From Limisphaerales bacterium (GTDB lineage Bacteria; Verrucomicrobiota; Verrucomicrobiia; Limisphaerales; AAA164-E04), in contig JAMASS010000017.1 of assembly GCA_024761205.1 (NCBI GenBank), forward strand, positions 1 through 64,000: a stretch of DNA of 64,000 bases, given 5' to 3'. Below, in pieces: positions 26 to 20,132 of this stretch (the stretch's first letter is position 1; each line of letters begins with the position of its first letter). Under the pieces are notes generated by a model. That model was given only the letters and a program-made list of their open reading frames with translations. It was not told the DNA's origin and made no database searches. The position numbers and the translations under genes are program-made.

Positions 26-730
26 ACTCTCCGCGAATGTCCGGGTGAAGTTAATTCGGCTCCAAGTTTCATCATCTCTGCGCATAACATAAACGGTTAA
101 AGTTTAATTTCATACTCCCCCCGTGCTTATTCAAGGCTGCTTGTCGGGGGACTATTTTTCAGCAAACCCTCACAGGCGGAATCCGTCAAGGAGAAAATGT
201 GATTTTTTCGGCGACTTATTAGAGACTTGGTTTAAACATCGCCAGCCATCTGCACCTCCCTTTACCGTCTGTTCAAATGGTTCCTAGAACCAAGGCCGCT
301 TCGCAGCTACAGCCCTACATGTTCGTCCAGGTGCAACAGGGGGCTTCCCTCCCGTGACATTACCACAGCCGTGACTTGCCACGTCCAAGGCTCGGATTTA
401 AAGCGGCGTTGCGACATCCCGATAATTTGGCTGCGCGGAGGCTGGCGTGACGCTGTTGAGAACCCCTCCAATAGCATGGATTCCAGGGAGTGGAAACGCA
501 CCGAACGGCCGGTGCTGCATTTCATCGTCGCCATCGTTACCGAGTTTCAAGACAAAGATGTGTTCCACAGCCAAACCCAGCTCCGCGAAAAGCCTTGGAG
601 GGACTCGGGGATTTGCCATCTGCGATACGGATAGGAATGGCCTGACGTTTTACTAACATCCGCAGGCACAAGGCATGAATCAAAGGGCCTGTCATGTCGT
701 CGATTGGCTAGGTCGGTTTTGACAAACGAA
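26..730. other. no recognisable gene
   Basis: Only short overlapping frames on both strands are present, none with a recognisable domain, credible start context or signal peptide. A minus-strand frame around 400-620 reads somewhat like protein but matches nothing I know. Together with the broken gene that follows, this is probably decayed DNA. Confidence 0.5.
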
Positions 731-1230
731 ATGAAGCTTTATCTCCCTCTCTCCAACGACGGTGAGGCACCCGTAAGAGAGGTTGGAGGCAAGGCGGCGT
801 CTCTCGCCTGGCCCAAGCTGGCTTCCTTGTCCCGCCTGGGTTTGTTCTGATGTGCTTCTCCACTATGAACACAAACGCAGCCTCAGCTCATTTGCGTCCA
901 GTATCGCCGTCATTATCCAAGGTCCAATCGATGGCGGAATCGCCGTGGCCGCTTTTTCCCGGAGCCTAGGTACGAACGACTACGATGAAGCGGCCATTAC
1001 ATGCGAACTGGGGTTTTGGTGAATCCGTTGTGGCAGGGCGCGTCTCACCGGATCATTTTGTTGTCAACAAAGTCTCTGGCTAGATCGTCGAACAACAAAT
1101 CGGCTCGAAGGAACTACATGGCCGACTCAAGCCCGCGTGGATCGAGGATCGACTCTGGTCTGAAGCGGTTGGGCTGACACCGCAGGGCCCGTTTGAAGGT
1201 GAAACGGTGGAAAATGTGCCGCCTCGGTAA
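731..1230 (+). pseudogene. decayed PEP synthase / pyruvate phosphate dikinase N-terminal domain
   Basis: An ATG at 731 opens a frame reading MKLYLPLSNDGEAPVREVGG and then KAASLA, which matches the start of the PEP/pyruvate-binding domain (PPDK_N). The continuation GFLVPPGF, also typical of this domain, is in another frame at about 815-850. A third piece at 1012-1125 reads GFGESVVAGRVSPDHFVVNK, then a TAG stop at 1081, then IVEQQIGSKEL. This resembles the GLGE(S)VVSGRVSPD...IGSKE segment of PEP synthases. The pieces are in the right order but need frameshifts and a large internal deletion, and the C-terminal two thirds are absent. The enzyme would convert pyruvate and ATP to PEP. It cannot be functional as read. 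Assignment to ppsA rather than another PPDK_N protein is uncertain. Confidence 0.62.
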
Positions 1231-1548
1231 CTTTCTTGAGCGGTAAGTGGTCAGCTAGATGCTGCCGGGTGAAGTCGTCCGCTCGATCCACGCGGGCTTC
1301 GTAAATTTCTTTTGAGGTTCTCAAATTTGAGTCTCGGCCACGGGGGCTTGTAAATGTCTCTTCAGTAGCGGGGCGGAGATTAGTCAGAGATGGTATGATT
1401 GGGAAGTGGATATGTTGGGGGTGAGATAGGACTTACAGGATGGGGTGTTCATGTGGGTCCTGTTCATCGTGTCAAAATAAGTTTCCACTTTAAAGTATTA
1501 GAGGGTTCGACCTATAACGCACGGCTCGTGTCGTCACCGGATATAACG
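1231..1548. other. intergenic DNA upstream of aroE
   Basis: About 320 bases with no recognisable gene or clear promoter. The open frame of aroE extends back to 1399, but those residues have no counterpart in shikimate dehydrogenases, so I treat them as untranslated. An in-frame GTG at 1528 is an alternative aroE start. Confidence 0.45.
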
Positions 1549-2448
1549 ATGATTTCTGCGGCAACGCGCTATTGCGCGGTATATGGGCATCCGATTCGGC
1601 ATTCGGGGTCGCCGGTGATGCAGAATGCAGGGATTCAGCAGCTAGGGCTGGATTGGCGATATCTAGCGTTTGATGTGCATCCTGATAAGTTGGCCGAGGC
1701 GATTCGGGGGGCGGAGCGAATGCATTTTGTGGGACTGAATTTGACGGCGCCACACAAGTTGTTGGCCTTTGAATTAGTCGATGTGCTGGATGATTCTGCT
1801 CGCGAGTGGGGAGCGGTGAATACCATTCGTTTTGAGGGACGCGATGCCGAAGGACGTTGGGTTTCGCTTGCGCGCCCGGAGGCGGATGACTTCGAGGTAA
1901 CTCGATCGGTCGGCTTCAACACTGACGCTGACGCGGTCGTGCGAGCAGTGGAAGAGGATCTCCGCTTGAATCTGCGAGGGGCCTCGGCGCTTGTTGTGGG
2001 TGTGGGCGGCGCTGGTCGGGTGGGGGCTTTAAAGTTGGCCGAGAGCGGTGTGAAGCGGCTCTTTGTGGTGAACCGAACGGTTGAGAAGGCCGAGGCGGTG
2101 AAGAGTGAGATCGGGGAGCGATTTCCGGAATGTGGAGTGACCATCGGGTATCCTACCGAGAGGGTGGATCTCTTGTTGAATGGGACCTCCTTGGGCTTGA
2201 AAGCGACGGATTCTATTCCAGCCGATCGCGAGCGGTTGAGTTTTTCTCAAGTGGCGGCTGTCTACGACATGATCTATCAGCCTGCTGAGACCCTGTTGTT
2301 ACGCGAGGCGCGGGCCGCTGGTTGCCGGGGTGCCAATGGTCTGGGCATGCTGGTGTATCAAGGGGCAAAGGCGCTTGAAATCTGGGCCGAGCGTGAGGCG
2401 CCGGCTAGTGTCATGCGGGCTGCGCTGGAGAAGCATATCTATGGATAG
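1549..2448 (+). CDS. aroE: shikimate dehydrogenase
   Basis: Reduces 3-dehydroshikimate to shikimate with NADPH in the cytoplasmic chorismate pathway. From the ATG at 1549 the product is 299 residues. It begins with the shikimate-binding segment YGHPIRHSGSPVMQN (S-x-S type), followed by NLTAPHK with the catalytic Lys, GAVNT, and GFNTDADA with the conserved Asp. The Rossmann glycine motif GVGGAGR and NRT then mark the NADPH site, and NGLGMLVYQGA closes the active site near the C-terminus. Length and motif order are those of the AroE family. I chose 1549 because the upstream in-frame residues are not family-like. A prepilin peptidase gene follows after 29 nt on the same strand. aroC, another gene of the pathway, lies 2 kb further on the opposite strand. 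Confidence 0.93.
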   Translation: MISAATRYCAVYGHPIRHSGSPVMQNAGIQQLGLDWRYLAFDVHPDKLAEAIRGAERMHFVGLNLTAPHKLLAFELVDVLDDSAREWGAVNTIRFEGRDAEGRWVSLARPEADDFEVTRSVGFNTDADAVVRAVEEDLRLNLRGASALVVGVGGAGRVGALKLAESGVKRLFVVNRTVEKAEAVKSEIGERFPECGVTIGYPTERVDLLLNGTSLGLKATDSIPADRERLSFSQVAAVYDMIYQPAETLLLREARAAGCRGANGLGMLVYQGAKALEIWAEREAPASVMRAALEKHIYG

Positions 2449-12547: not shown

Positions 12548-13654
12548 TCACTGGGTCACCGACACCACCGGCTTGCCGAGTATATCCATCCTCGGTTTGA
12601 TACCTAGTCCCTGTTCGCGGGATGCCTTCATTCGGCCTTGTTCCCGTTGTGGCGCGCCTTCTGCCGTGCTGACGGTGACGTAACTATTGAAGTCGGTGGA
12701 CGTAAACAACAACTCTGTTGGGGTGCTATGCGCCAGATGTGAAATGGCCGCCGTCGTAATATCGCCACCCCAACTGTCTTCGATCGTCATCGCGATGCCG
12801 AGACGCGCACAAAGGTCCCTCGCCTGACGGGCTTTGGTCAGTCCGCCAAATTTGCTGATTTTGATGTTGACGACATCCATGGCAAGATCCGCGCGACCGC
12901 GCAGGAGAATATCGAGACTATCGATATTTTCATCCAGCACGAAGGGATGGTTAGCGTGCCGTCGGACGGACAGGCACTCCTCGTAGCTCAGGCACGGTTG
13001 CTCGATATAGATGTCGGTATCCCTGACTGCCTGTACCACTCGCATGGCTTCGTGCATCAGCCAGCCGGTATTGGCGTCGGCGATGAGTTTATCCCCGGGC
13101 TTCAATTCCTGAGCCACTGCCTGGATGCGGAGAATATCGACGTCAGGATCGCCACCGACCTTGAGTTGAAATCGGGAGTACCCTTCAGCGCGGTAGCTCG
13201 CGACCTTTGCGGCCATTTGCTCGGGCGCTTCTTGAGAGATGGCTCGGTACAACATGTAGGCGTCACCATAGTAACCTCCAAGGAGCGTGCAAACCGGTTG
13301 CTCACACACCTGTCCCAAGATGTCCCAGCAGGCGATGTCGATGCCGGATTTCACGTAGGGGTGTCCTTTTAGCACACGGTCCATGTGGTAGTTCAGTTTC
13401 TCGAGTTCGCATGGATTGCGGCCCAGGAGATGCGGTCCGATCTCTCGGATTCCAGCACGAACACCTTCTGCGTAGGCCGGTAGATAAAACGGCCCTAAGG
13501 GGCAGACTTCCCCATAGCCGATTGTTCCGTCATCGGTGGAGATGGCGACCACTGAAGAGTCAAATACCGAAACCGATTTGCCCCCGGACCAATTGTAGTT
13601 CCCTTCGTGTAGCGGGAGATCCACTTGATAGACGTCAATTCGACTAATCTTCAT
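12548..13654 (-). CDS. mandelate racemase/muconate lactonizing family enzyme (enolase superfamily)
   Basis: A 368-residue enolase-superfamily enzyme that removes a proton alpha to a carboxylate with Mg2+. The N-terminal capping domain has [20 protein letters not shown]. The barrel shows [10 protein letters not shown], metal ligands in [12 protein letters not shown] and VLDENIDS, a Lys in [10 protein letters not shown], and [12 protein letters not shown] near the C-terminus. The pattern fits the muconate-lactonizing subgroup. The N-terminal WSGGK segment recalls cis-3-hydroxy-L-proline dehydratases and proline-betaine epimerases, so an amino-acid-derivative substrate is my best guess. I start at the ATG at 13654 ([10 protein letters not shown]); the 31 upstream in-frame codons are not conserved. 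It stands alone, so the pathway cannot be read from context. Confidence 0.85.
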
Positions 13655-14472
13655 TTCGTTGAATGATACTGATAAACGGTAGTTTAGAACCGGAACCTGA
13701 TTTAAGGAACCTCTGAACTCCTTTATTGTCCACCTCATCAATGGCAAGCCCTTCGCCGAACGCTTCGCAACTGCAAGGCCCGCGGGATGTAAACTGTGCT
13801 GGTGCGAGGTTCCCTAGCACCTTCCACGATGGGATGAGAGTATCGCCGTCGTCAGTTTGAACGCTACGGATAGCGGGTTATAACCCATCTTAGCGAGGTA
13901 GAAGATTTCGCCTTTCATCGAGATGAGTCTGAGGGATTCGGTGACGGTCTTTGTTCCCTCTGGGCCGATGCGGTAAGCCAACCCCTTCATAAGTCTCCCT
14001 GCTCACCAATGTTCAGTCCTCTCTTATGGTTCGAGGGCCGTTGTTCTTTCCCCATTTTCCCAGGAGCCGATTCAGGGGCTCCTGGGATGGATTTGGGGAG
14101 GCGTGTCTTGAGCGAGGGCATGTGCAGGCAGGAGAGGAGGGCGGTGCCAGAGCGTGGATTGGATGTTTCATATTTCTAGTAATTGTCGGAATGGTGACCT
14201 ATATAGTACGCAGCAGTTTTGTCTGGGTCACGTCCGAACCTGAGGATTTGAATAGGAGGCAGCGGAGGGAACGGAGGTTTTTGATTTTGTGCCAAGCTGT
14301 ATTCAAAAGGACTGGCCTGTATAGGGAGCTCTGCATTCTGCAAGGTCGGTTGTCTCAGCCGATCCCGCAGATTGCCCGCCGGTGGCGGACTTGCGCTGAG
14401 ACAGCACACGCTTCAGTTTGATGATCGCCCGGGGCGATTGCTGCAAATACGGTGGCGGTCGAAGATACGAGG
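13655..14472. other. gene-poor region with short coding remnants
   Basis: No intact gene. A minus-strand frame running down from about 13990 begins MKGLAYRIGPEGTKTV and continues GEIFYLAKMGYNPLSVAFKL for about 65 codons before a stop. It looks like part of a decayed gene I cannot name. A second minus-strand frame (14176-14409) is Pro-rich and not recognisable. An end of the repeat family described at 16514 lies at 13702-13718. Confidence 0.4.
13702..13718 (+). repeat. IS5-like terminal sequence, single end
   Basis: TTAA followed by GGAACCTCTGAAC repeats the first 13 bases of one terminal repeat of the 250-bp element at 16514-16763. The TTAA here equals the 4-bp YTAR target flank of that element. 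No convincing second end was found. A loose candidate is GAGGTTCC followed by CTAG at about 13806-13817. Confidence 0.5.
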
Positions 14473-14944
14473 ATGAGGTATGCGAGGATGGTTGTTGTCG
14501 GTGGTGTGACGTTTTTTAGTGTTGCGATGTTGGTGGGCATTTTTTCGACGATCTTTGTCCACGCTGCCTTCATGAAAGAGAGTTATCGTGAGACTGAGCA
14601 GTTTTGGCGGTCGGGGTTTTTGGGGTTGGCTGGGGAAAGGGAGCGGCTGTGTTTTGGGGTTGGCTGGCGCACAAGGTGGTTTTTGCCCTTGGTATGAGTT
14701 TATTCTATCTCTGGAGCCGGCGTTCTTTGCGCCGGGTGGCGGCGTGGTGCGAGGTATCTTTGTGGGCTTACTTTCTTGGGTGATGATGGCGGCGACCTAT
14801 CTGGGTATGTGGACGGCGTTTGACTTGCCTGCGGTGATCTGGATCGCCTGGGCGGGGGATTATTTATTGAGTGCGGTGATTGCCGGGGCGGCGATGGGGT
14901 GGGTCATCGAACGGTTTGAGGGAGTGGTTGGTTCCAAGTGCTAG
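14473..14944 (+). pseudogene. frameshifted integral membrane protein
   Basis: Two frames in order encode one hydrophobic protein. The first, from ATG 14473, reads MRYARMVVVGGVTFFSVAML and a further hydrophobic stretch. The second carries VVRGIFVGLLSWVMMAATYL and DYLLSAVIAGAAMGWVIERF to the stop at 14944. A third frame between them contains WGWLAHKVVFALGMSLFYLW, which bridges the two. Restoring the reading needs at least two frameshifts. The restored protein would have about four membrane helices. Family unknown. Confidence 0.5.
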
Positions 14945-15639
14945 GTTGAGGGGGCGGGTCAAGATATAGAGAACAAAAATTGATCAGAGGTCTAAGGCGA
15001 AACTTTTAGGGGAATCTTGAATTCTCGGTTTTGACCGATCTTGCATTCGATGACGGTGATGTTTTCTGCATCGACTTTGATATTGCCAGTCCCGGTGAAG
15101 GCGCTCGGGGGGGGTCTAGGGAAACGTTGATTAACAACCGGAAACTCGGTTTTTCTCTGGAAAAATCACCGAAAACAGCAAAGTTAGGGGATTAAATCAG
15201 AGTTTCCCTAGAAGGAAGGTGATGAATCGGTTGGTCACGGGTTCGGTGGCATCGAGATATTCGAAGATTTTGCGGCCGAAGGTTCAGCCTTTTCCCATCA
15301 GGATTGGGAACGGTTGGTGAAGTCCGGTGGCGCCAAGCTCGAGTCCGCGGGCGACGGGGTTGCCGGAGACGAGGGATCGCCGGCCGCCAACAAGCGTTTC
15401 GGCCCCGGTGGAGGGGAGGCTCAAGCAGGTCGGTAGAAGGAGTATCTGCCTGATCTGTCGGGATTGTATCATGGTGGATGGCGGGAGTTTGCCGAGTTTG
15501 GGCTGAAGTTCAAAGTTTCAGGTTTTAAGTTTGGGGGCGGCTGGCGCAATTGAGTTGAACGCAGGTGAGAGAAGGAAGGGCTCTGAACGTTGTCATAAAG
15601 GACTTTCTTTACACGTGAATTTTTAGGGGCGGGGGGCTC
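14945..15639. other. decayed intergenic DNA
   Basis: No gene recognised. A minus-strand frame at about 15000-15105 reads FTGTGNIKVDAENITVIECK and ends IPLKVSP, probably the tail of a decayed secreted protein. A 62-codon minus-strand frame at 15284-15472 cannot be assigned. A G-rich run occurs at 15109-15115. Confidence 0.4.
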
Positions 15640-16513
15640 GGCTGTTCAAAGAAAGGGGCATATTGGGCCAATGTCTTTACTATAACTCCGGTCTGTAGCC
15701 CTCCACGAGCGAGTTTGGTGACGAGTCGCTATGGCGGGGTTGGTAATTACCGACTAGATTCACCCTCGCCGGTCGCCGACCTTGGGGCTGTCACTGGATC
15801 ACCTGGCTTTTCCAGAATTGCTCAACACGAATGGTTACTACATCGATCTCGTGGGAAAGTGGCATCTTGCCCGTACGGACGAATGCCACCCGAAGCAGAT
15901 GGGGTTCGATTATTTCATGGGATAATGGGATGGTGGTTAGTCATCGGTGGCCCCGACGCTTGAATTTGAGGGGCAGCCGAAGAAGCTCGAGGGAGCTGAC
16001 GGCCGATGTCTTGGGGGATTTTGCGGTTCAGTTTATGCGGGATCATCACTAGGAGCGTTTCTTTCTCGCCTGGCATACGTGGGCACCGCAATCGCGTTGG
16101 TTGCCGGTGTCGGACGAGGATTGGGTGCCCTGCGAGGGGTTCGGTCCCAAGTTGCCCCATCCGGACTATCCTAATCTGGATGGGGAGCAGGCCAAGCGAA
16201 TGACCCGAGAGTATTTAGCGAGTATGCGGAGTGTGGATCGAAATCTCGGGTGCCGGCTCGCGGTTTTTGAAGGAATTGGAGATCACTGAAAAAAACCGTC
16301 ATCCTGTTCAGCTCAGACTACGGGTACAACATAACGCACAATGGCATCTGACATAAGGAAACGGACATTGACTACTAAAGGAGCCTCCGGCGGCAGCGTA
16401 AAACATTCCCAAGGGACAGCGACCTAACAATGTATGATACTTCGATTCGCATGCCGACGGCGGTTTGGTGGCTGGGTGGATTCGTCAGGGGTTCAGGTAA
16501 CGGAAACCATTAG
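15640..16513 (+). pseudogene. sulfatase (arylsulfatase-like), N-terminal part, broken
   Basis: Fragments in correct order match an alkaline-phosphatase-superfamily sulfatase. They are ANVFTITPVCSPPRASLVTS with the C-x-P-x-R active-site signature at about 15691, GYYIDLVGKWHLA, HPKQMGFDYFMG, then TADVLGDFAVQFMRDHH, RFFLAWHTWAPQSRW, REYLASMRSVDRNLG, ILFSSDYGYNITHNG and MYDTSIRMPTAVWW. At least five frameshifts and several in-frame stops separate them, and the first 40 or so residues are missing. The final readable piece is GVQVTETI at 16487-16511, directly at the edge of the inserted element. The rest of the gene resumes at 19741. Intact sulfatases hydrolyse sulfate esters of polysaccharides after Cys or Ser is converted to formylglycine. 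Confidence 0.82.
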
Positions 16514-16763
16514 GGAAACTCTGAACAAGTCCAGGGCATTTTTTCAGGTTATTCCGTGATTGAGGCAAAGCCTCGACTGGTGACGAGCAAATCCCAACGC
16601 TGAGTAAGGAGTAAACCGAAAGCCTCACCGGGCGTGGGCCTAGAGGGGGGCGCCTTCGTCGCGTTGCGCGCCACGCCGAGAACAACCACCCCTAGATTTC
16701 GGCTTGCGCTTTGCAATAGCAAGCCTCAGGCCGCGCTGAAACACTGACTTGTTCAGAGGTTCC
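16514..16763 (+). mobile_element. 250-bp non-autonomous element with IS5-like terminal repeats
   Basis: The left end GGAAACTCTGAACAAGTC (16514-16531) and the complement of the right end (16746-16763) match at 17 of 18 positions. The element is flanked by TTAG on the left and TTAA on the right, consistent with the 4-bp YTAR target duplications of the IS5 group (family knowledge from memory). No transposase is present, so this is a MITE-like or internally deleted copy. It starts exactly where the sulfatase frame is interrupted. Related ends occur at 13706 and, more diverged, at 16903 and 19740. Confidence 0.68.
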
Positions 16764-16902
16764 TTAAATAGCACGCTAAAGCGGACCTAGACCGGACGTG
16801 AGGGTGCGCTTCAGTTTGTGTTCGATGATTCGGATTGTCGCGGCGCCTTCGCGGCTAACGGCGGTTAAGGCCATGCTGTCCAGCGCTTTATTTAGTCTCT
16901 AG

Positions 16903-16962
16903 TGAACTTCTGAACCAGTATCCGACGTTCAGGCTCAAGGCGCAAAATTGCCGGCACATCGG
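16903..16962 (+). repeat. dispersed repeat, left copy of inverted pair
   Basis: This segment (GAACTTCTGAACCAGTATCC... CAAAATTGCCGGCAC) matches the reverse complement of 19681-19740 with roughly 85% identity by eye. Its outer end resembles the IS5-like ends found nearby. The pair brackets the DUF819 pseudogene, further remnants and tRNA-Arg. Confidence 0.65.
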
Positions 16963-16964
16963 TT

Positions 16965-17730
16965 TGTTGGTTATGCGGAATGTGTGGATAGCCGCTCTGT
17001 CAGCGGCGCTGGCCGGGGCGTGGATCTGGCGGCGGTGCCAATCAAACGGTGATGAAGGAAATTTTCGAGGTGGACGATGGATTGTTCTCCGCAATGAGCA
17101 CGGTGGATGTGTGGATGGCTTTCTTGTTGTTTTGGCATGCCTTGAGCGACAAAGTTTGATCAGTGGAACCGGGCGGACGCGTCGGTGAGGGACGAGAGAA
17201 GGCGGCGCTAGTCATTGATCCGTTCACGCTTCTGGCCGTGTGTGTTGGCGTTGCTGGGGGGAACATTTCTTAGCGGATGTTATCTCCGTGGTTGGCAACG
17301 AATGCCCCCGGATTGGCGAGGTTTAGTTTGACGAGTCATTGATTCTGGTTGGCCGTAATCGCAACCACCACTGGGGTCCTTGCTGTCCTTGACAAAGATT
17401 TCGGAGTTGGCGGTTAGGACTTCAAAGTTGGAAACCGTGCTTTTCCATGTACTGATCGCCTCGGTCGGCATGAAAATGGATGTATTGGCAATCTTCAGTC
17501 ACACCGGATTATTTGTCATCGGTTTGACTTGGATCATCATTTATGAAGAGGTGTTGATTTGTTGCGGGAAGGATGGTTCGGATACCGTTTTTCCTCATCC
17601 CAGTGAGCAGGTGCGCGGCCTCCGCACCGGTGTCGAGGGAGCATTTCATCCTTCTTTGGCTCCGATCGGGGTGCTGTTGGCTGTTTTGGGATATGGAGTA
17701 GGCAACTACGGTGCTTATGCTTGTGCCTAG
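16965..17730 (+). pseudogene. DUF819-family membrane protein, broken
   Basis: Pieces in order: WIAALSAALAGAWIWRR (16984 on), LFSAMSTVDVWMAFLLFWHA in another frame (about 17087-17150), FDQWNRADASVR (about 17155), VLFHVLIASVGMKMDVLAIF (about 17440) and the C-terminal SLAPIGVLLAVLGYGVGNYG ending at 17730. The last is the family C-terminus (L.PIGVLLAVLGYALGT.). DUF819 proteins are multi-helix membrane proteins of uncertain transport function. Several frameshifts and internal losses make this copy non-functional. It lies inside the DNA that splits the sulfatase. Confidence 0.68.
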
Positions 17731-19632: not shown

Positions 19633-19680
19633 GGGCTTGCCGTTGCCGTGGCGTTGCTATGCCAGATTTTTGAAGCGTCG

Positions 19681-19740
19681 CCAGCGTGCCGGCAATTTTG
19701 TGTCTTGAGCCTGAACGCCGGATACCGGTTCAAAGGTTCC
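19681..19740 (-). repeat. dispersed repeat, right copy of inverted pair
   Basis: Reverse complement of 16903-16962 at about 85% identity. Its outer end, read on the minus strand as GGAACCTTTGAACCGG, resembles the terminal repeat of the 250-bp element. Directly to its right the sulfatase reading resumes, after TTGG, which may be a mutated copy of the TTAG flank at 16510-16513. Confidence 0.65.
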
Positions 19741-20132
19741 TTGGCAATCTGGATTGGTATCCGACTATTTTTGGATATCGCCGAGATTCCGCTCCCTCGG
19801 AACACGGTCATTCGCAGGAGGAGTTTTCTGCCGCTATTGATGGCGTCTCGATTCCCGGTTGGGATAACGGATTCTGTGCGGAGTATTCGACGAAACAGCA
19901 ATCGCATATATACATAGGGACGTACTGAATGCCCCAATGGAAGTTGGTTCGAGACTTCATGAATCCGAAGCGAGATAATTTCTATCATCTGGCGGATTTG
20001 CTGGAGGCGCGGAATTTGTTGAGTGCTCCGTTGTCGTCAGAGGCGAAGTTGGTGGTGGTGAAGTTCTCGGCGGTCATTTTCTCGAAAATGGAGGCGGTAG
20101 GTGATTCTGTTCTGGATGTTGCGCGTCGTTAA
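19741..20132 (+). pseudogene. sulfatase C-terminal part, broken
   Basis: The reading resumes with NLDWYPTIFG at about 19745, the next expected residues after the VTETI that ends at 16511. Another frame gives FLDIAEIPLPRNTVIRRRSF, and a third WDNGFCAEYSTKQQSHIYIG. After a TGA at 19926 the same frame continues MPQWKLVRDFMNPKRDNFYH and EARNLL, ending at 20132. These match the C-terminal region of sulfatases (WKLVRDF..RDEFYDLA.D..E..NL). One stop and at least one frameshift break it. Confidence 0.8.

Follow-up and report, generated by a model that had tools for sequence, protein, structure and literature searches.

The closest described system is the IS5 group of the IS5 family (NF033581 transpos_IS5_4; PF01609 with PF05598), which has the same termini and 4 bp YTAR targets as the element described here; YTAR is given as the IS5 target motif in PMC10359306. 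Unlike these insertion sequences, the present element is gene-less and 250 bp long. MITEs of Porphyromonas gingivalis, for example BrickBuilt, are described as having ends that match IS5-family elements (PMC4596501). As described in that source, BrickBuilt resembles the present element in being short and transposase-less, in having IS5-family-matching ends and in target duplications that are not uniform, although its ends are different and its genome carries full-length IS5-family elements, whereas none were found here. In de novo prokaryotic MITEs, as characterized in PMC3852290, similarity to the driver is confined to the terminal repeats and copy numbers often exceed 10. The likeness to these MITEs, which are from other genomes and are compared by description, is that here too the terminal repeats alone resemble a driver.

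The window, the whole 64 000 nt stretch analysed, belongs to a 4.94 Mb draft genome of 92 contigs that is 95.1 % complete. The element within it is an ordinary gene-less IS5-type passenger transposon, one of several families in this genome, apart from its apparent patchwork structure. This family (family A) leaves the understanding of IS5 elements unchanged. It illustrates a lineage in which IS5-type MITE families may have persisted after the loss of their drivers, and it cautions that a MITE whose two flanks are both plausible yet differ can be a recombinant and not one insertion.

The 250 bp element and its family

Positions are those of the window unless a contig is named (C38, C39):

16510–16513, no strand: left flank, TTAG (YTAR type), unlike the right flank
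16514–16763, no strand: MITE-like element, long copy of family A, 250 bp, 17/18 terminal inverted repeat
16514–16531, plus strand: left terminal inverted repeat, GGAAACTCTGAACAAGTC
16628–16714, no strand: middle stretch missing from both other family A copies
16746–16763, minus strand: right terminal inverted repeat, GGAACCTCTGAACAAGTC
16764–16767, no strand: right flank, TTAA (YTAR type), also present at the C38 locus
C38:12299–12451: short copy of family A, 153 bp, from similarity search
C39:22008–22158: short copy of family A, 151 bp, from similarity search

Read across both borders, the element is TTAG-GGAAACTCTGAACAAGTC ... GACTTGTTCAGAGGTTCC-TTAA. Seventeen of the 18 terminal positions pair, and an inverted-repeat search that includes the flanks gives arms of 22 nt with 91 % complementarity. 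Inverted repeats of at least 20/22 within 300 bp occur at one place in the 64 kb window and in none of 12 mononucleotide shuffles; the terminal pairing exceeds chance, and the MITE-like element with 18 bp ends named in the original prediction is real. None of the window's listed ORFs that reach 80 aa overlaps it. The whole element is predicted to fold into one long hairpin (−101.4 kcal/mol versus a shuffle mean of −83.6, z = −3.9), as would be expected because inverted repeats fold in any case. The flanks had been predicted to be of YTAR type, and both fit; however, TTAG and TTAA are unequal and are therefore not a target duplication as they stand, so that no matched duplication is present at this site. 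An additional end with TTAA, likewise predicted at 13702, exists (TTAA-GGAACCTCTGAAC, 13702–13718), and it belongs to a separate 108 bp element, in which it pairs with 13813; it does not make up one half of the 250-mer.

The proposal of a non-autonomous family, and of further copies to be sought in the genome, is borne out by the C38 and C39 loci, which bring family A to three copies. In comparison with the window copy, the left part of these two is 83 % and 78 % identical and the right end 96–98 %. Both lack a counterpart of 16628–16714, a stretch that is bracketed in the window copy by AAGCCTCA, which occurs once in the short copies. The other two copies measure 151 and 153 bp, and the unit that moves may be other than the 250 bp form. 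The longest other match of the middle stretch within this genome is 18 bp; elsewhere it gives 25–27 bp matches alone, in 2 of 195 other genomes, which are taken as chance. Besides these, no relative of family A was found in the 195 genomes, nor among 125 stretches from elsewhere that carry an exact 20-base end. Identical flanking 4-mers are found in none of the three copies, that on C38 lying between CCAG and TTAA.

Sister families with the same ends

The ends belong to a shared motif, YTAR-GGAAMCTCTGA. The pattern searched, YTARGGAAMCTCTGA, has 31 exact occurrences in the genome versus 0 for the reversed pattern, and 72 versus 4 when up to one mismatch is allowed. At least three families have such ends, with lengths of about 88, 140 and 150–250 bp. 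They were compiled through pattern and similarity searching together with selected stretches, and they constitute a sample, not a census. A pair scan of the window and 59 genome stretches (20 + 20 + 19; L177 was left out) listed 64 candidate pairs by the joint score of their ends and the YTAR-likeness of their flanks, and the flanks are thus partly selected. Thirty elements were kept: 21 of about 88 bp (M88; chosen by size and score, plus one 100 bp copy by hand), six of about 117–148 bp (M140; by hand) and the three of family A (likewise by hand). Of the 34 pairs set aside, four looked like genuine elements, and the majority link ends that are far apart or unrelated.

Of the 30 curated elements, 16 carry the same 4-mer on both flanks, where 5.8 are expected, and none of 10 000 permutations, run on the same flank-selected set, reached as high a count. 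By family, the figures are 11/21 for M88, 5/6 for M140 and 0/3 for A. Adding four elements omitted at first (C9:13706, C2:87825, C56:25970 and C3:112896) gives 17/34 versus 6.6 expected, and adding also two relic insertion sequences with differing flanks gives 17/36 versus 6.5. The non-palindromic CTAA or TTAG is present on at least one side in 11 of the 34, six of which have it identical on both sides. The flanks of some curated elements are a poor fit to YTAR, such as in C29, C26 and C67. Insertion at YTAR with a 4 bp duplication is thus found for the sister families and not for family A.

No exact ends were found in three congeners or in seven other members of the same bacterial family that were searched. 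Among 115 other genomes they occur once each in two, and the reversed pattern gives four single matches there (among the matches listed). Given 31 exact ends here, none in the three congeners and no excess elsewhere, the expansion of these families looks local to this lineage.

IS5 transposases elsewhere and relics in this genome

The wider comparison drew on the 125 stretches with an exact 20-base end, at least 120 from a genome scan and five from viral contigs. They contain at least 129 exact ends, and for at least 82 of these an inward-facing partner lies no more than 2.2 kb away. At least 14 end pairs are 1.1–1.25 kb apart, and 10 of 14 have identical flanks (4.0 expected; a count as high arose in 1 of 5000 permutations). 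Elements of this kind, 1.15–1.2 kb long, carry an exact YTAR and 16-base end on one side and 1–5 mismatches in 20 on the other. Each of the long pairs, at least 14, holds a frame matching a transposase profile, a poor one made from the longest ORF of six loci of which L095 alone is clearly a transposase by its residues. Ten of the 14 share the same score and frame length and therefore probably represent ten counts of a single insertion sequence. Curated models were applied to the proteins of L197, L198 and L262, which score 334–353 bits to the NF033581 IS5 transposase (cut-off 140) and also match PF01609 and PF05598; the assignment of the remaining long elements is that of the poor profile. 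Two of the long elements (L305 and L289) look frameshifted.

Shorter pairs, 50–450 bp apart, number at least 64 (L194 and L266 being counted from both ends among the pairs listed), and 44 of 64 have identical flanks versus 13.4 expected. MITE-sized elements with these ends are therefore common elsewhere. Elements of this size with the same IS5-type ends, of about 110, 154 and 271–275 bp, are present at L194, L266, L210, L216, L219, L192, L223, L226, L249 and L260, in Acidobacteria, Lysobacterales, Dokdonella, and betaproteobacterial and cyanobacterial records.

Within the same order, IS5_4 genes lie between GGARACGCTGA ends at L092, L093 and L095, with CTAG, TTAG and TTAA, respectively, on both sides; the search scored identical flanks higher, and these examples are partly selected for their flanks. 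Ends of this type were not picked out in the other nine of the 12 loci examined. Of these nine, L101 and L108 have different ends flanked by CTAG on either side, and L097 has inverted ends of another kind with flanks that are not identical.

In the present genome, no match was obtained with PF01609, PF13340, PF05598 or NF033581. With an intact IS5 transposase as query, five weak matches were obtained (best E 5e-5). Stop codons interrupt four of them, and the remaining one covers 51 residues (E 0.97). Multi-copy insertion sequences tend to be lost from short-read drafts, and the genome is a draft; absence of the transposase is therefore not proven. An intact driver of 1.1–1.2 kb would be expected to have the outer ends GGAAMCTCTGAAC. 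One relic, L047, has similar outer ends:

C7:36711–37581: relic IS5 element, 871 bp, with unmatched flanks CTAA and CTTA

One strand of L047 carries IS5-like pieces broken by stops, and copies or parts of it are present on C46, C80, C34, C31, C28, C58 and C10. Against NF033581, one translated piece gives E 5e-6, a second 0.23 and a third no match; against Pfam, the pieces gave an unrelated match alone (E 0.2). The relic and family A share about the first 15 bp and no more, and the flanks of the relic are unmatched, so the parent of family A was not found. L047 and a second relic, L046 (C34:11128–11701), have GCCTAAGG in common at the left end and CTTAGG at the right and differ in the flanks further out; their actual termini may thus be located outside GGAA. 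On the strand opposite its broken IS5 gene, L047 also contains a 291-codon stop-free frame (locus positions 712–1584, plus strand) with no Pfam or NCBIfam family match, taken as a putative chance frame in G+C-rich DNA.

The proposal of IS5-type mobilisation thus holds in part. Insertion sequences of the IS5 family that have YTAR duplications lie between near-identical ends in other genomes, and the present genome contains IS5 relics whose outer ends are similar; however, no intact transposase was found here. That a functioning IS5-type transposase resides elsewhere in this genome, as had been supposed, is unsupported, the searches of this draft having yielded broken relics and no intact transposase. 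The proposal would have fallen had neither further copies nor transposases with related ends existed; both exist, the transposases in other genomes.

Origin of the window copy and its surroundings

Beyond the element, the window holds the following related features:

16715–16957, no strand: segment 98.4 % identical to C38:12403–12645, running from the interior of element A through the right flank into half an M140 element
16903–16957, plus strand: M140-family MITE, left half only, cut off at 16957
15120–15207, no strand: M88-family MITE, 88 bp, CTAG on both sides
13706–13813, no strand: 108 bp element with the same outer end, TTAA on the left and CTAG on the right
12548–13747, minus strand: mandelate racemase/muconate lactonizing-type ORF (PF13378, PF02746)
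19633–19742, minus strand: degenerate M140-family copy, outer end at 19740, opposite end not located

The segment shared with C38 starts inside element A, crosses its right end, the TTAA and a spacer, and stops inside the M140 element, which is whole at C38:12591–12707 with CTAG on both sides. Outside element A, the flank gives 192 matches and 2 mismatches between the window and C38 (194 bp), whereas the left part of A gives 83 matches and 12 mismatches plus 6 gap columns (p = 9e-5 for the divergence contrast between the left part and the right part with its flank). At the right end of the element, 47 of 49 bp match in each of the three copy pairs, and the case for a chimera therefore rests mainly on the outside flank. 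With the flank at 192/194 and the left part at 83 of 95 aligned positions, the window copy is probably a recombinant, in which the right part and flank have been joined to a more diverged left part. One insertion followed by one duplication fails to yield this contrast. Copying of the right end and flank from a C38-like locus into, or beside, an older A element is the simplest account, and such a chimeric origin would explain the unequal flanks. Counting against it, the A copy at C38 likewise has flanks that differ (CCAG and TTAA), and the short copies may have lost the extra stretch by internal deletion, given its bracketing by AAGCCTCA. The window and C38 share the order M88, A, M140, and they were examined for a larger concealed duplication: the intervals separating the shared pieces gave no further DNA match at E 1e-4, and translated matches there cover 5–23 residues (best E 0.013).

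The reading preferred here, with a probability of roughly 0.9, is that family A is an IS5-type non-autonomous family moved in trans and that the window copy later recombined. Set against this reading are the failure to find an intact transposase here, the small size of family A (three copies, none between matching flanks), its limited likeness to the relic and the lack of relatives in the other genomes searched. A full-length insertion sequence would have made an IS5-group DDE transposase, which would have bound the shared ends GGAA[A/C]CTCTGAAC...; the element would have moved and inserted at a 4 bp YTAR site, with duplication of the site. Several such families would have multiplied in the lineage, the drivers now visible in the genome being all broken. 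Recombination would then have altered the window copy, bringing the right part and flank up to 16957 from a C38-like source, so that a C38-derived (or recent common-source) right part would adjoin an older left part. The direct evidence consists of the common ends, the sister families, their identical flanks, IS5 genes between near-identical ends, the relics and the divergence contrast, from which we infer mobilisation in trans, the order of events and the direction of copying.

It is unlikely, though worth serious consideration, that the 250 bp element is instead a single intact insertion of the long form, with flanks one mutation apart and with short copies that are internally deleted. One substitution does convert TTAG to TTAA, the AAGCCTCA direct repeats flank the middle stretch and are single in the short copies, and a single long hairpin is predicted for the entire element (z = −3.9); against such an insertion stands the contrast between a flank at 192/194 to C38 and a left part with 12 mismatches to 83 matches (p = 9e-5). 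The near-identity of 16715–16957 at two loci, with limits inside two MITEs, might also be read as a 243 bp mobile or recombination unit in its own right, half A and half M140. This has little to recommend it, since the spacer 16764–16898 is present at two places in the genome alone, the window and C38 (E up to 0.001), and no terminal repeat common to the two ends of the unit was seen. Least credible is a hairpin RNA or regulatory repeat (of the ERIC or REP kind) kept for its function and not a transposon. The strong predicted fold would suit such a repeat, but inverted repeats fold anyway, the ends are those of IS5 elements, the sister families carry duplicated flanking 4-mers and no family A relative was found in the other genomes searched.

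A recombined IS5-type passenger remains the preferred reading for the window copy. A more doubtful extension is that short-tract recombination lets clusters of MITEs swap ends and flanks, as in 16715–16957; if so, chimeric MITEs with mismatched flanks would keep forming after their transposase had died.

The region 13750–17400 contains no ORF above 131 aa, and translated pieces near 15800–16300, which presumably resemble a sulfatase, gave no Pfam match; the region probably represents decayed genes in which MITEs accumulated. The inner part of the element at 13706–13813 matches DNA in or beside M140 copies. This element lies about 50 bp upstream of the likely ATG of the mandelate racemase/muconate lactonizing-type gene, and given this position it may carry or disturb the promoter of that gene.
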